A stretch of 64,000 nucleotides of DNA, from positions 903,001 to 967,000 of the forward strand of contig NZ_JAUOEO010000001.1 of the NCBI RefSeq assembly GCF_030540825.1, read 5' to 3'. The notes under the pieces were generated by a model. That model was not told the DNA's origin. It saw only the letters and a list, made by a program, of their open reading frames with translations, and did not search any database. The position numbers and the translations under genes were made by a program. Origin of the DNA: Flavivirga spongiicola. Its GTDB lineage: Bacteria > Bacteroidota > Bacteroidia > Flavobacteriales > Flavobacteriaceae. Of this stretch, positions 30,938 through 36,527 are shown piece by piece (position 1 is the stretch's first letter; each line of letters opens with the position of its first letter).

Positions 30938-31359
30938 CGAAATCAACCTACCTTTAAAAAGCATTTTAGAGACTTTATACAATAATTATCAACAATTGTT
31001 AATTACTAAAAAACTCCTTAAATCGACTAAAAAGCACCTTAAAATGGATTTCAACTATTTTTTACATGATTGTTAAAATTAGAAAACATTAAAATCGTTT
31101 AGAGGATAAGTTTCAACTTTGCTCAAGGCAAGCTATATTAATTTCTAACAACTATTTATACTAAAAAATAAATCTTAGAAAAGAAATTCAAATAAATAAA
31201 AAACTTCTTTTCCCATTTATAACAACAAAATATTCTGTCAAGAATTAAACTTAAATGAATAATTATTGTAGAACTAATAAATTAATTTTAAGTTTTTTAT
31301 TAATTTGACAATAAAAATATTAGATCATGAAAAATGATGTTTAGTAAATTTATTCTATA

Positions 31360-31367
31360 TATATTTG
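31360..31367 (+). promoter_or_regulatory. -7 promoter box TATATTTG of the gat-asp operon leader
   Basis: An exact TAnnTTTG match. It would start transcription at about 31373, leaving some 12 nt before the leader-peptide ATG at 31385. The -33 TTG is not evident at the usual spacing. The position immediately before a leader ORF and terminator is what an attenuated operon requires. Confidence 0.55.
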
Positions 31368-31384
31368 ACAACAGATAAAGTATT

Positions 31385-31432
31385 ATGACAATAAATAACA
31401 ACAATAATAATTTCAATAATCCTAATTTTTAG
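31385..31432 (+). CDS. Asn-rich leader peptide of the gat-asp operon (15 aa)
   Basis: A 15-codon ORF, M-T-I-N6-F-N2-P-N-F-stop, in which nine codons specify Asn, six of them in a row (31394-31411). The stop TAG is at 31430-31432. It is followed at once by an antiterminator arm and a Rho-independent terminator, then the genes that make Asn-tRNA(Asn). This is the classical structure of an amino-acid operon leader peptide, here for asparagine. The same codons also form a small hairpin, ATCCTAA (31419-31425) with TTAGGAT (31429-31435). The peptide itself probably has no function. No homologue is known to me; translation is inferred. Confidence 0.7.
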   Translation: MTINNNNNNFNNPNF

Positions 31433-31436
31433 GATC

Positions 31437-31471
31437 GGAAGGTTATTGTTTAAATATATATAAAGCCTTCC
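31437..31471 (+). promoter_or_regulatory. Predicted antiterminator of the Asn attenuator
   Basis: GGAAGG (31437-31442), starting five bases after the leader stop codon, can pair with CCTTCC (31466-31471), extended by T-G and T-A pairs to 8 bp. The right arm is the same sequence that forms the 5' arm of the terminator, so the two structures exclude each other. A ribosome finishing at the stop codon would cover the left arm and favour the terminator; one stalled on Asn codons would leave it free. Confidence 0.6.
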
Positions 31472-31491
31472 AAATTTGGAAGGCTTTTTTT
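31462..31491 (+). terminator. Attenuator terminator upstream of the gatC-like gene
   Basis: AAAGCCTTCC (31462-31471) pairs perfectly with GGAAGGCTTT (31478-31487) over a 6-base loop, followed directly by more T residues. It stands between a promoter-leader ORF and the first structural gene, not after a gene, which is the position of an attenuator. Confidence 0.85.
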
Positions 31492-31512
31492 ATTAATCTA
31501 ATAAATGAAACC

Positions 31513-31782
31513 ATGAGTAAAATTATGACAGTCGACATATTGTCGAGTATTAAAGGAGCTCAACCTTCTGAGGCAGTGAGCAAATTATTTGACGTGATTA
31601 AAAATGCACAAACAGCAAATGATACCCCCTTTAATAATCATCATAATAATGGCGTGTCTTTAAATAATTTGAGAGATGATGTAGTGATTGAAAGCTCTGC
31701 TTTGGAGAAACAAATCATTAAAGACAATTTCCCGAAAGAGAAAGATGACTATTTAGTAGTTTCTAAAGTTATAGATGCATAG
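31513..31782 (+). CDS. gatC: GatC-like subunit of Asp-tRNA(Asn)/Glu-tRNA(Gln) amidotransferase
   Basis: 89 residues. The C-terminal half, NLRDDVVIES...FPKEKDDYLVVSKVIDA, matches the GatC pattern (LREDxV.PS ... APExEDGYFxVPKVI). The N-terminal half does not show the usual GatC helices and instead has a His/Asn-rich NNHHNNG patch. GatC wraps around GatA and stabilises the complex. The gene is 3 bp upstream of gatA and downstream of the Asn attenuator, which supports the call. A tiny frame M-K-P-stop (31505-31516) overlaps its ATG. The divergence makes the call probable, not certain. Confidence 0.65.
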   Translation: MSKIMTVDILSSIKGAQPSEAVSKLFDVIKNAQTANDTPFNNHHNNGVSLNNLRDDVVIESSALEKQIIKDNFPKEKDDYLVVSKVIDA

Positions 31783-31785
31783 GTT

Positions 31786-33186
31786 ATGGAATCTCAAATA
31801 CAACATATCCACCAACAATTGATGGACAAGAAAATTTCTTGTATCGACTTGATTCAGGAAAAATTAAGCTTGCTTAAAAAAAATACTCATAACACCGTAA
31901 ACGCTTTACTAACCGAATTAGCTTTAGAACGAGCAGCCAAGGTAGATACCAAAATTGCAAATGGAGAAACTATTGGTTTACTTGAAGGGATTCCGTTTGG
32001 TATTAAAGATGTTTATATGCTTCAAGGCACTTATGCAACAGCTAGTTCAGACTTACTAAAAAATTATAAATCGGCATATACCGCCACAGCCATTCAAAAA
32101 TTATTGGATGCAGGTGCCATACCTATTGTAAAAGAAAACTGTGATAGTTTTGGTCATGGGTCTTCTAGTGAAAACACCATTTTTGGAGCCGTTAAAAATG
32201 CTATAAATCCAGAATTAGTGGGTGGTGGTTCTAGTGGTGGCTCAGCCGTTAATGTGGCTAAAGATTATACCGTCTTTTCTATTGGTGGAGATACAGGTGG
32301 TTCGGTTCGCCAACCAGCTGGCTATAATAATGTATATGGTTTAAAACCAACTTACGGAAGAATATCACGCTATGGTTTAATGGCCTACGCATCATCAACA
32401 GATTGTGTTGGTCCTTTGGCAAAATCTGTAGAAGACATTCGCATTGTCTTAAATGTGATGAGCGGAAAAGATATAAAAGATCAAACAACTTATAATTCAG
32501 AAGGCATTGAAAAAGAAAATATTTTAAATGCAGCTGACATTAAAACGGTTGGTTATTTTAAAAACTTTATTGAAAGCGAAGCCATCGATACTCAAATTAA
32601 AGATGATTTTTTAGCATCGATCGAAAAAATAAAAGCAAATGGCATAAAAGTAAAAGAACTGGATTTCTTTAAATCTGATATTCTGGTTTCTACTTATTAT
32701 ACCTTGGCTATGGCAGAAACAGCATCAAACCTATCACGTTTAGACGGTACCAATTATGGTGACCGTATTGACAATAAGGATCTAAAGGAGTCTTATGCTG
32801 TGACACGATCCGAGAAATTTTCGGAAGAAACCAAACGAAGAATTGTCGGTGGGAATCAAGTATTATCTCAAGGGTTTTCTGATGAAATCTATTTAAAAAG
32901 TCTCGCTTTAAGGGATTTAATTTCTGAAAACTTCGAAAAAGATTTTAAAGAAGTGGATATTATCTTATCCCCCGTTACGCCTAGTACACCGCCTAAAATT
33001 GGAGATAGTTTAAAAGATCCTTTAGCCATGTACTTATCTGATGCTTATACGGTAGGTTTTAGCTTAGGACAACTACCTACCTTAACCATTCCTCAAGGTA
33101 CGGAAACAGGTTTACAGGTTACAGCAGCAAAAAATAATGACGAACTCGTTTTGAAGTTTGCTAACTTCTTAAAAGATACGATATAA
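31786..33186 (+). CDS. gatA: Asp-tRNA(Asn)/Glu-tRNA(Gln) amidotransferase subunit A
   Basis: Amidase subunit that releases ammonia from Gln or Asn for transamidation of misacylated tRNA. 466 residues with the amidase-signature triad visible: Lys in GIPFGIKDVY, Ser of GGGSSGGSA and nucleophile Ser in GGDTGGSVRQPAG. AYASSTDCVGPLAKS is a further GatA hallmark. Its stop overlaps the gatB::aspS ATG (TAATG), so the two are translationally coupled. Confidence 0.95.
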   Translation: MESQIQHIHQQLMDKKISCIDLIQEKLSLLKKNTHNTVNALLTELALERAAKVDTKIANGETIGLLEGIPFGIKDVYMLQGTYATASSDLLKNYKSAYTATAIQKLLDAGAIPIVKENCDSFGHGSSSENTIFGAVKNAINPELVGGGSSGGSAVNVAKDYTVFSIGGDTGGSVRQPAGYNNVYGLKPTYGRISRYGLMAYASSTDCVGPLAKSVEDIRIVLNVMSGKDIKDQTTYNSEGIEKENILNAADIKTVGYFKNFIESEAIDTQIKDDFLASIEKIKANGIKVKELDFFKSDILVSTYYTLAMAETASNLSRLDGTNYGDRIDNKDLKESYAVTRSEKFSEETKRRIVGGNQVLSQGFSDEIYLKSLALRDLISENFEKDFKEVDIILSPVTPSTPPKIGDSLKDPLAMYLSDAYTVGFSLGQLPTLTIPQGTETGLQVTAAKNNDELVLKFANFLKDTI

Positions 33187-36100
33187 TGGATTTGGAACAA
33201 TTAGACACGGCATTAAAAGCCCATGAATTAGAATTGGTAATCGGACTGGAAACGCACGTACGATTAAATACCAAAACCAAGTTGTTTTGTTCTTGCCCAA
33301 ACCAAGAAATAGAAACGCCAAACGAACATATATGTTCTGTTTGCACAGGACAAATGGGGGTTTTACCTGCTATTAATAAAGAAGCTATCAACAAAGCCAT
33401 TTATTTTGGAAAAGCTGTAAAATCATCTTTTGAAAACGAAGTCATTTCCTGGGACAGAAAACATTACGAATACCCGGATAATCCAAAGAACATTCAAATC
33501 ACACAGTTTCACAACCCCGTCATACCAGACGGACAAGTCTCTTGTTTTAGAAATGATGGATCTCAATTTACAGTTAATTTAACCCAAGTACATATCGAGG
33601 AAGACGCTGCTAAATTGATGCATGAAAAAACGGTGTCGTTAGTCGATTTTAATAAGGCCGGGGTACCGCTTATTGAAATTGTAACCGAACCATGTATTCG
33701 TCATATTGAAGATGCTTCAACCTATGCACAATACATTCAACGTATTGTTCAGAATTTAAAGATATCTGAAGCCAACTTGGAAAAAGGAGAATTTAAATCG
33801 GATGTTTCTGTATCGCTTCGTAAAAAACATAGTTATAATTTAAATCCACGTACCGAAATAAAAAACTTGAACTCGTTTAAGTTTATGGTAGAGGCTTTAA
33901 AAGAAGAAGTTGAAAAACAATTCAACTATTATATAGAGCATAAAGAGTTTCGACCAGATCAAACCACCGTTTTATGGGATGCCGATTTAAAGCAAACTAA
34001 AACGATGCGTAAAAAGGAGTTTGAAGCCGATTATCGTTTTATCTCAGAACCAGACTTACCTTTCGTTTCGATTAAAGAAGTCGTCGATACCATTAAGGTT
34101 GATACAAGTACCTTACCATACGCTGTAGAATCTATTTTAATTAAAGGAGGCGTATTACCACAAGATGCTAAATTTTTCACAGCAGATTCGTTACGTTCTG
34201 AAACGTTTATTGCCATAAATAATGCCCTTAAAGACCCTTCTTTTGTTGCAAAGACATTAGTGAACAATATTGGTGCTGATGAATATGCCGACATACACAG
34301 AATAGAACATCTTATTGAAATATTTAAACTATTCAGAGATGAAAAGATAACATCTGTATTGGTTCAAAATGCCATTACATCGTATCTAAAAGACAGGGAT
34401 TTTGATTATAATAAGTATTTTAAAGATAATACCATCTCAGAATCACAAATTCAGGATGCTATTGAAAAAGTGATTTCTGAAAATGATGCTGTTGCAAATG
34501 ATATTAAAGGAGGAAACCAAGGAAAAGCAGGTATTCTAGTTGGTAAGGTAATCGCTATTATTGGAAAAGGCGCCTCTGGAAAAGTAATTCGGGAAGGGAT
34601 TCTTAGTCAGTTGCAAAGTTCATCTCCAGAAGTTCAGAATTCTCTAACAACCAACAACCAACAACAATCAACCAACAACCAACAACCAACAACCAAAATA
34701 CAAGAAGAGATATTACCTAAAACCCCTATTGTTATAAAAGACGAATACAGAACGCATTTAATTTCAGATGTTTCTGAAGAAAATATTTCTGAAGACGTTA
34801 CTTTTTCAGGATGGGTGTCAAGTGTTCGTGATCATGGTGAACTTATTTTTATCGATTTACGAGATTCCAGTAACGAAGTGTTTCAAGTACGTTTAAGTAG
34901 AGAGTCGTTCCCTAATTTAGATGAGCTGGTAAAATTAAAACCAGAATCGGTGATAACGGTCACGGGTACTATTGTTCAACGTAAAGAAGATGATTATAAC
35001 GCTGCGTTGCGAACAGGTAAAATAGAAATGGAAACGGCTTCTTTAGAGATTTTAAACCTTTCTAGAACACTGCCTTTTGAAATAAAGAGAGCAACTAAAA
35101 CAAACGAGACCACTCGTTTTCAATATAAATATTTAGATCACAGAAATAACGATGTTCGCAGGGTTATTATTAACCGTCACAAAGTCATTAAATTGATGCG
35201 TGATATTTTAGATGAACAAAATTTCTTAGAAATTGAAACACCTATATTAAGTGCAGGAACAGACGAAGGAGCCAGAGAATTTATAGTTCCTACTCGTAAA
35301 CAAGCGGGCGCATTTTATACCCTACCACAAGCTCCACAACAATTTAAACAAATGTTGATGGTAAGTGGTTATGAAAAATATTTCCAAATTGCACGTTGTT
35401 TTAGAGATGAAGATTCTCGCGGTGATCGTCAACCGGAATTTACGCAGTTAGATTTAGAAATGGCTTATGCCAGTATGCAGCAAATTATAGATTTGAACAC
35501 CAACATGTTCAATAACATCGTTAAGAAAATATATGGTAAAAAATGGATTCTACATCCGTTTGAGGTGATCACCTATAAAGAAGCGATGGACAAATATGGT
35601 TGCGACAGACCCGATTTACGTTTTGGTTTACAATTACAAGATATTACAGATATTGTAAAAGACACCACCTTTCAGGTATTTAGTAAACCCATTGAAGAAG
35701 GCGGTATTGTAAAATGTATTAAAGTATCTGCTGAAGAACAAGGAAAGAAGCGTTTATCTAAAGGACAAATAGAGAAGCTAACTGCTATAGCCCAACAGCA
35801 CGGCTTAGGGGGTTTAGCATATATTATTGTTAATGAAAACGATTTGCAATCACCAATTATTAAGTTTTTAGGTGAAGATATTGCAACCGGTATTATTAAA
35901 ACAACCAACGCTCAAGTTGGTGATATTGTATTTTTCTCTGCCGCAGACTATGTGACAGCAAATAAAGCACTAGACGCAGTTCGTCAAGAACTAGGTAGCA
36001 TGTTGCGTTTAATAAACCCGAAGGAATTAAGACCTGCTTGGGTTGTAGACTTTCCTATGTTTGAAAAAACAGATGAGGGCCGTTGGACATTTACCCATAA

Positions 36101-36527
36101 TCCTTTCTCTATGCCAGCTATTTATGATATTGACAAGCATATGAATGGCAATGAGAACGAAATCGGAAGTATTATTGCTCAACAATACGACCTCATCTTA
36201 AATGGTTACGAAATTGGAGGCGGTTCTGTTCGTGCTCACAAACCTGAAATTCTGGAAGCTACCTATAAAAATATGGGGTATAATAAAGAAGAAATGCTTA
36301 AAAGCGTTGGCACAATGTATAAATCTTTCCATTATGGTGCGCCACCACACGGAGGTATTGCCTGGGGGGTTGATAGGTTGATGATGATATTAGAAAAAAA
36401 GGCATCTATTCGTGAAGTCATGGCGTTTCCAAAAACAGGAACCAGTGAAGATTTATTATTCGGGGCACCTTCTTTATTATCAGATAAAAAAGTTGAAGAA
36501 ATGAATGTAAAAGTGATGAAAAAATAA
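33186..36527 (+). CDS. gatB/aspS: GatB-AspRS fusion: amidotransferase subunit B / aspartyl-tRNA synthetase
   Basis: 1113 residues joining both steps of Asn-tRNA(Asn) synthesis. Residues 1-478 are GatB: VIGLETHVRLNTKTKLFCSC, zinc Cys pairs (CSC and CSVC), EPDLPF and the tail GGNQGKAGILVGKV. Residues about 480-518 are a Gln/Asn/Thr-rich linker. Residues 520-1113 are bacterial-type AspRS: OB-fold anticodon domain with RDHGELIFIDLRD, motif 2 FRDEDSRGDRQPEFTQLD (about 738), GAD insertion, and motif 3 GIAWGVDRL. His in the DHG segment is the residue linked to non-discriminating AspRS, while discriminating enzymes tend to have Leu. Such a fusion lets Asp-tRNA(Asn) pass directly to amidation. There is no frameshift or stop at the junction. 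Confidence 0.93.
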   Translation: MDLEQLDTALKAHELELVIGLETHVRLNTKTKLFCSCPNQEIETPNEHICSVCTGQMGVLPAINKEAINKAIYFGKAVKSSFENEVISWDRKHYEYPDNPKNIQITQFHNPVIPDGQVSCFRNDGSQFTVNLTQVHIEEDAAKLMHEKTVSLVDFNKAGVPLIEIVTEPCIRHIEDASTYAQYIQRIVQNLKISEANLEKGEFKSDVSVSLRKKHSYNLNPRTEIKNLNSFKFMVEALKEEVEKQFNYYIEHKEFRPDQTTVLWDADLKQTKTMRKKEFEADYRFISEPDLPFVSIKEVVDTIKVDTSTLPYAVESILIKGGVLPQDAKFFTADSLRSETFIAINNALKDPSFVAKTLVNNIGADEYADIHRIEHLIEIFKLFRDEKITSVLVQNAITSYLKDRDFDYNKYFKDNTISESQIQDAIEKVISENDAVANDIKGGNQGKAGILVGKVIAIIGKGASGKVIREGILSQLQSSSPEVQNSLTTNNQQQSTNNQQPTTKIQEEILPKTPIVIKDEYRTHLISDVSEENISEDVTFSGWVSSVRDHGELIFIDLRDSSNEVFQVRLSRESFPNLDELVKLKPESVITVTGTIVQRKEDDYNAALRTGKIEMETASLEILNLSRTLPFEIKRATKTNETTRFQYKYLDHRNNDVRRVIINRHKVIKLMRDILDEQNFLEIETPILSAGTDEGAREFIVPTRKQAGAFYTLPQAPQQFKQMLMVSGYEKYFQIARCFRDEDSRGDRQPEFTQLDLEMAYASMQQIIDLNTNMFNNIVKKIYGKKWILHPFEVITYKEAMDKYGCDRPDLRFGLQLQDITDIVKDTTFQVFSKPIEEGGIVKCIKVSAEEQGKKRLSKGQIEKLTAIAQQHGLGGLAYIIVNENDLQSPIIKFLGEDIATGIIKTTNAQVGDIVFFSAADYVTANKALDAVRQELGSMLRLINPKELRPAWVVDFPMFEKTDEGRWTFTHNPFSMPAIYDIDKHMNGNENEIGSIIAQQYDLILNGYEIGGGSVRAHKPEILEATYKNMGYNKEEMLKSVGTMYKSFHYGAPPHGGIAWGVDRLMMILEKKASIREVMAFPKTGTSEDLLFGAPSLLSDKKVEEMNVKVMKK
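34645..34696 (+). repeat. AACAACCA-type microsatellite inside the GatB-AspRS linker
   Basis: The DNA of the linker is almost wholly a degenerate AACAACC/AACCAACA tandem repeat, encoding Thr, Asn and Gln. The same unit appears on the opposite strand in the intergenic region at 61371-61402. It may represent an intergenic microsatellite that became coding when the two genes fused. Confidence 0.7.

Follow-up and report, generated by a model that had tools for sequence, protein, structure and literature searches.

Ribosome-mediated attenuation is the mechanism of the trp, his, leu, thr, ilv and phe leaders of enterobacteria, and to our knowledge asparagine is missing among the amino acids sensed by leader-peptide attenuation. 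T-boxes bind uncharged tRNA directly; Saad 2012 is said to describe one that controls tRNA-dependent amidation in Clostridium acetobutylicum, and Saad 2013 reportedly a two-codon T-box. In the family considered here, leader-peptide attenuation has been suggested upstream of amino-acid operons of Flavobacterium psychrophilum (PMC9723704), a proposal that, as worded in the main text of that paper, resembles the present one in bacterial family and mechanism class; this main text has neither asparagine nor gatA, while its supplements could list an Asn case, and the Flavobacterium gat operons judged among our loci were without a leader. Moreover, PMC2494555 places no T-box before amidotransferase genes in the set treated there, and PMC4206432 holds it an open question, for Bdellovibrio, why organisms with AsnRS keep GatCAB. 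An Asn attenuator was not described among the papers listed by the literature searches, an absence that is no proof of novelty since subscription papers were mostly beyond reach, and no paper on this GatB-AspRS fusion was among those listed.

The element compared with these systems lies in the window, that is, the whole stretch of 64,000 nucleotides analysed from Flavivirga spongiicola (NZ_JAUOEO010000001.1, positions 903,001 to 967,000), with all its parts on the forward strand. It is very probably a ribosome-mediated transcription attenuator of the trp/his type, which would read the supply of Asn-tRNA(Asn) and control a gatC-gatA-gatB::aspS operon. Like the enterobacterial attenuators, it has a leader ORF enriched in the product's codon, predicted pairings 1:2, 2:3 and 3:4 that overlap, and a predicted intrinsic terminator before the first gene, but it differs from them in the Asn codon, the tRNA-amidation target, the Bacteroidota-type box and a hairpin across the stop codon. 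With the clostridial T-box it shares an extra AspRS accompanied by GatCAB beside AsnRS and a presumed regulation through tRNA charging, whereas its likely sensor is the translating ribosome and it gave no T-box match. The proposed mechanism is of the classic kind; the Asn specificity and the tRNA-amidation target are new within the literature searched.

The original prediction had placed the leader ahead of gatC-like, gatA and gatB::aspS genes, and model matches and coordinates agree with it. The gatC-like gene (31513..31782) was matched weakly, under both the Pfam and TIGR cut-offs (PF02686, 20.7 bits for a cut-off of 23; TIGR00135, 20.9 bits for a cut-off of 47.1), while gatA (31786..33186) had TIGR00132 as its best family, below the equivalog cut-off (433 bits for a cut-off of 481), and scored 371 bits with PF01425. 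GatB and AspRS were both above cut-off in the fusion gene (33186..36527; NF004012, 396 bits for a cut-off of 338; TIGR00459, 644 bits for a cut-off of 374), in which GatB occupies residues 14-477 and a bacterial-type AspRS residues 520-1113. The fused protein was 94% identical to a Flavivirga counterpart. The fusion (33186-36527 in the window; also L002) coexists with a stand-alone AspRS encoded at another site of the genome, 39% identical to the fused one. Full-length fusions (E ≤ 1e−200) were found in 59 out of 397 family genomes, this count including one partial copy on a short contig.

Direct reading of the leader bore out most of what had been claimed from the sequence. A TAnnTTTG box, TATATTTG, stands at 31360..31367 and is followed by the leader ORF MTINNNNNNFNNPNF (31385..31432), which runs over 15 codons from the ATG at 31385 to the stop TAG at 31430-31432 and encodes M-T-I-N6-F-N-N-P-N-F, with the predicted nine Asn codons, six of them consecutive at 31394-31411. 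Segment 1 (31400..31414), made up of AACAATAAT (31400-31408) and TTTC (31411-31414), was delimited from the folds and holds the putative regulatory codons pairing with segment 2; a small hairpin across the stop codon, ATCCTA with TAGGAT, spans 31419..31435. Segment 2, GGAAGGTTATTGTT (31437..31450), was defined by pairing conservation and contains the candidate antiterminator arm GGAAGG at 31437-31442, beginning five bases past the stop codon, and the competing CCTTCC was read 23 bases beyond it, at 31466-31471, both as predicted. This CCTTCC belongs to segment 3, AAAGCCTTCCA (31462..31472), whose partner is either segment 2 or segment 4, TGGAAGGCTTT (31477-31487), the latter continuing in a T-run to 31491 and forming the end of a predicted intrinsic terminator (31477..31491). 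The terminator and its T-run stood, although the stem, given before as 10 bp, has 11 pairs (31462-31472 with 31477-31487), with seven T and −15.9 kcal/mol. An equal stability of this hairpin was reached in none of 200 shuffles, and the same was true of the fold of the 114-nt leader (−29.4 kcal/mol, compared to −13.5 ± 2.7 in the shuffles; 0 of 200).

The distribution of the element was established in relatives found by a contig scan with the fused protein, of which the best 80 out of 574 confirmed loci were taken, nearly all from Flavobacteriaceae. In 78 of these 80 loci gatC was matched ahead of gatA, the contig starting later in the other two. The assessable set comprised 78 operons, namely 77 loci and the window, leaving out L067 and L080 (contig without gatC) and L093 (contig ending inside gatC). 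Beforehand, the prediction was to count as refuted if homologous operons were missing the Asn-rich ORF or the arms that compete, and 50 of the 78 carried the element: 49 were recognized by a pattern consisting of Asn leader, segment 2 arm and terminator, and L036 by a covariance model (119.4 bits). All alignment-based figures cover the 49 only. In L036 (3032-3328), the leader is intact, and some 180 nt of other DNA separate its terminator from gatC, compared to about 20 nt in the window. The remaining 28 operons had no model match ahead of gatC, and their lack of the element counts against the attenuator reading. Both GGAAGG and CCTTCC were absent from all 28 (260 nt before gatC; 158 nt in L085), so that the absences concern the whole switch and not one arm; a terminator-like hairpin was present in three of them (L059, L069 and L070). 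The leaderless operons belonged to Flavobacterium, Lutibacter, parts of Tamlana, Algibacter and Polaribacter, and others. When the fused proteins were placed on a tree (78 rows, quick method), eight gains or losses were needed to account for the presence of the leader, and the simplest reading of this pattern, though not a proof, would be a single origin of the gat leader followed by repeated loss.

A covariance model built from the 49 leaders, with filters that may lose weak matches, was searched against the 397 family genomes and gave a single strong match in each of 37 of them, scoring 87-127 bits, followed by a match of 53 bits. All 37 strong matches lay directly ahead of gatC and gatA. 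The leader was present in 36 of the 59 fusion genomes, while in the 37th leader genome the contig ends in gatA. Since many of the 397 genomes appear identical to assemblies among the 80 loci, the two counts overlap. A scan of 295 genomes of the class gave a strong match only in the own genome, and two others at 57 bits. These results bear on whether Asn codons might have fallen by chance next to an ordinary terminator. The region is AT-rich, AAT and AAC are common triplets in it, and among 20,000 dinucleotide shuffles of 31100-31512 as many as 43 had a short ATG ORF with six or more Asn; none reached at least nine, and none had six in a row. The retention of the element in 50 of 78 operons and the position of all 37 strong matches before gatC further oppose such a coincidence, which is refuted by conservation and to which we assign practically no probability. 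On this comparative evidence, which outweighs that of the shuffles, it is confirmed that the element is not due to chance. Furthermore, when 60 nt upstream were searched, every one of the 49 aligned leaders had TAnnTTTG, which we take to be the Bacteroidota-type promoter box, 10-23 nt ahead of its start, with 2.5 of 49 expected from single-base shuffles; in a sigma-70 scan, sites were no more numerous than in shuffles.

The competing pairings were maintained across the 49 leaders. For the 3:4 terminator, found by one rule in every leader, 95.7% of the cells were paired, and two-sided changes (e.g. G-C to A-U or A-U to G-C) amounted to 20 cells, compared to 7.8 in shuffles. The 2:3 pairing of GGAAGG with CCTTCC was almost invariant (98.6% of cells paired, the first G being absent in four of the 49), and no covariation was found in it within the 49 leaders, the pairing being nearly invariant. 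To the 1:2 pairing the leader ORF contributes AACAATAAT and TTTC, which pair with GAAGGTTATTGTT of segment 2 and enclose the stop-codon hairpin TCCTA-N5-TAGGR. The helix of segment 1 with segment 2 had 96.5% of its cells paired and the stop-codon hairpin 93.5%, while the 1:2 structure overall reached 95.6% of 931 cells; the base closing the stop hairpin beyond the ORF was A or G in all 49 leaders. Variants that still kept a 1:2 pair were nearly all changes to G-U, with one from U-G to C-G, and no compensatory change in 1:2 was found within the 49 aligned leaders. The 1:2 pairing, resting on conservation and not on covariation, would complete the 1-2-3-4 layout of the trp type. Compensation exists outside the gat leaders, in leaders before asnA that are presented below and were compared by eye: the stop hairpin of L175 reads TCAGT/ACTGA, and segments 2, 3 and 4 covary as GAAAGG/CCTTTC/GAAAGG in L168 and as GAGAGG/CCTCTC/GAGAGG in L169.

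In the minimum-energy fold of the full-length RNA, 3:4 formed in 49 of 49 leaders and the outer 1:2 stem in 38. So stable a terminator might simply be a fixed one, standing behind an unrelated small Asn-rich protein with no switch at all; GGAAGG would then have no role, and its conservation, at 6-8 nt past the first stop base in 48 of 49 leaders and paired with segment 3 as above, argues against this and leaves it very little likelihood. A riboswitch, T-box or protein-binding leader in which the ORF would be incidental is harder still to credit: there is the precedent of the clostridial T-box attributed to Saad 2012 for tRNA-dependent amidation, but an Rfam scan of the whole 64-kb window at gathering thresholds gave zero matches, T-box included, and the consensus fold was limited to the 1:2 and 3:4 hairpins. 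In an RNA ending at segment 3 and free of ribosomes, no thermodynamic preference for 1:2 was seen, 2:3 winning in 40 of 49 leaders, and hence 1:2 could exert a protective effect only kinetically.

Within the aligned leaders, the ORF had 14-17 codons with 6-10 Asn in all 49 cases, starting with ATG in 48 and GTG in one. Codon positions were counted from the leader Phe, and p-values for codon choice ignore relatedness and are hence overstated. At position −4, AAC made up 40 of 48 Asn codons, its C pairing with G, while AAT was found at −3 in 48 of 49 leaders and at −1 and +2 in all of them. The Phe codon itself was TTC in 45 of 49 leaders, compared to 23% of the Phe codons in gatA of the same loci (without the window). 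At the predicted-unpaired positions +1 (31415-31417) and +4 (31424-31426), AAT was nearly fixed in the former (45 of 46 Asn codons) and accounted for 36 of 36 Asn codons in the latter; our guess is that AAU is perhaps the more starvation-sensitive codon, which would explain AAT at +1 and +4. The last residue of the peptide was free (F, V, I, L, C, S, T, R, Y, W and others), the penultimate one was Asn in 36 of 49 leaders, and 13 of the 49, most of them from Polaribacter, had Arg or Leu instead of Asn at position −2. The stop codon, TAGG and GGAAGG were retained while the last residue varied, and in L084 the stop lies two codons further downstream with the TTAGG arm retained.

Several drug-sensing leaders work by nascent-peptide arrest, and the same terminator/antiterminator switch might be triggered here by arrest on the N-run with FNNPN in response to a small molecule or drug. 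At the residue level FNNPN is near-constant, as this would lead one to expect, but the wide variation of the last residue and the Arg or Leu at −2 do not suit it, the TTC and CCT codons are explained by RNA pairing, the product of the operon is probably Asn-tRNA, and the asnA, ilvD, ilvE and pheA-like leaders described below bear the codon of their own product. We therefore hold arrest by the peptide to be improbable. The geometry of an attenuator responding to Asn-tRNA was tested on the assumption that the ribosome reaches 12 nt downstream of the first base in its A site. Counted from the first stop base, segment 2 begins at 7 nt in 34 leaders, at 8 nt in 12, at 6 nt in two and at 2 nt in one. 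With this assumed edge, 2:3 formed in 48, 48, 48 and 49 of the 49 leaders when the ribosome waited at −4, −1, +2 and +4, respectively (36 of the leaders have an Asn codon at +4), and in none of them when it stood at the stop codon. The modelled placement of the antiterminator thus fits an attenuator, being covered at the stop codon and free at the regulatory codons.

The proposed mechanism would work as follows. When Asn-tRNA is ample, the ribosome would reach the stop codon and cover segment 2, so that the 3:4 terminator forms and transcription stops ahead of gatC. When it is scarce, the ribosome would wait at an Asn codon; it would then cover segment 1 and leave GGAAGG exposed, and the free segment 2 would pair with segment 3, in which case no terminator forms and the operon is read. 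The fused AspRS would then make Asp-tRNA(Asn), whose amidation yields Asn-tRNA(Asn), and the operon would act as an asparagine-biosynthesis operon. Because AsnRS is also present, charging with free asparagine would shut the operon. This scheme assumes transcription-translation coupling in the phylum Bacteroidota. The earlier attenuator reading is supported by the parts, their conservation, their spacing and the gene content, from which we infer termination in vivo, stalling, read-through, the enzyme specificities and the response to Asn-tRNA charging.

Similarly built leaders were found before other genes. Among the weak matches listed by the family scan (up to 53 bits), 13 were inspected; six belong to Ile/Val leaders of ilvD or ilvE, and seven resemble plain gene-end terminators. 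In the own genome, L142 (G000:C1:1431547-1431672, reverse strand) has the Ile/Val leader MKKQILNIVSIIVIVIISQR with the segment 2/3/4 design before ilvD (717 bits), and scored 44.5 bits with the gat-leader model. Ile/Val leaders were also observed before ilvD in L135, L137, L140 and L147 (assigned by similarity of the protein start) and before ilvE in L144 (307 bits). Furthermore, in L151 (from 1509) and L175 (2570-2693) a leader containing Phe/Tyr codons and followed by a terminator stands before a pheA-like gene, both genes scoring below the curated cut-off of the model. L151, whose leader has Phe codons, came from the class scan, and its gene was matched with the prephenate dehydratase model.

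An Asn leader before asnA was first met in the class scan (L150/L168). A total of 23 asnA loci were screened upstream by rule, giving Asn leaders in L155, L161, L168 and L169, and nine of the 23 were inspected by eye, which added L164 and left L166 doubtful. Another four asnA loci came from 46 genomes of the order of L168, two with tandem Asn leaders (L175 and L176) and two without (L177 and L178). Overall, Asn leaders stood before asnA in seven out of 27 loci from other families (six by rule and one by eye), all six rule-positive loci having a terminator. In a control of 40 dinucleotide shuffle rounds, the rule alone was met 1.2 times on average, with a maximum of four, and never together with a terminator. 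The tandem Asn attenuators before asnA (L168, 1159-1401; L175, 1141-1398; L176, 1167-1412) belong to one other order of the class, and L169 has two Asn-codon leaders as well. Only L168, L175 and L176 scored well with the gat-leader model (49-62 bits), compared to up to about 36 bits for stray opposite-strand matches. Given their low scores, the other asnA leaders share the design and not the sequence of the gat leaders; on these sequence comparisons, the two kinds of leader may have arisen from one ancestor.

The own genome encodes AsnRS (604.7 bits for a cut-off of 342.6) as well as GlnRS, so the operon would be a second route to Asn-tRNA(Asn) and not the only one; the idea of the operon as the sole source was rejected for this reason. 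It also has three AsnB-type proteins above cut-off, while a search for AsnA gave no match, and none of its four asnS and AsnB-type genes had an Asn leader upstream by rule. Since the AsnB-type genes may also supply asparagine, this genome is not the cleanest case. A total of 80 chosen genomes were then compared: 37 with the leader, 23 with the operon and no leader match, and 20 without the fused operon, these last taken in handle order. AsnRS was present in 36 of 37, 19 of 23 and 20 of 20 of them, respectively, and AsnB above cut-off in 13, 11 and 19. AsnB was thus absent from 24 of the 37 leader genomes, the single one of which without AsnRS was 76% complete. The absence of AsnB distinguished 36 of 60 operon genomes from one of 20 others (Fisher P = 1.3e−5, a value that ignores relatedness and is overstated). 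Among genomes at least 90% complete, AsnRS was lost in 0 of 34 with the leader and four of 22 operon genomes without it (P = 0.02, relatedness ignored), a hint that loss of AsnRS is linked to absence of the leader, two of the four genomes sharing a genus. G180, G228, G237 and G383 are near-complete and have the operon, with no AsnRS above cut-off and no strong leader match.

The fused AspRS has His at the equivalent of H31 of the P. aeruginosa Asp/Asn enzyme, a residue that presumably matters for the Asp/Asn specificity of AspRS, and so did 75 of 78 fused rows (three unparsed), the position being occupied by Lys in the stand-alone AspRS and by Leu in the enzymes of E. coli and Thermus. At the equivalent of G82 of the P. 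aeruginosa AspRS, which we take to be a second specificity site, the fused AspRS has Asp and not Gly, which counts against the proposed route. The His at the H31 equivalent suggests that the fused AspRS is able to charge tRNA(Asn). Moreover, the tRNA(Asn) of the own genome carries the U1-A72 pair, which bacterial GatCAB requires according to PMC4206432.

In marine Flavobacteriaceae, the genes that follow the leader probably produce tRNA-bound asparagine, and to judge by the gene content the operon looks like a regulated asparagine supply that replaces AsnB, beside the salvage of free asparagine by AsnRS. We lean towards viewing the Asn-sensing attenuator as a shared Bacteroidota module placed on two unrelated asparagine routes, AsnA making the free amino acid and a GatCAB-AspRS fusion operon, which would have replaced AsnB, making it on the tRNA, with the operon as an inducible tRNA-based pathway and the attenuator kept where AsnRS competes for the tRNA. 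The controlled enzymes would themselves make the sensed Asn-tRNA(Asn), the shortest possible loop, and the gat leader would be convergent in purpose with the clostridial T-box by a different mechanism. The conserved and easily scored set of attenuators for Asn, Ile/Val and Phe could be used to test transcription-translation coupling in Bacteroidota. Finally, the attenuator offers a reason for an organism with AsnRS to keep the GatCAB route.
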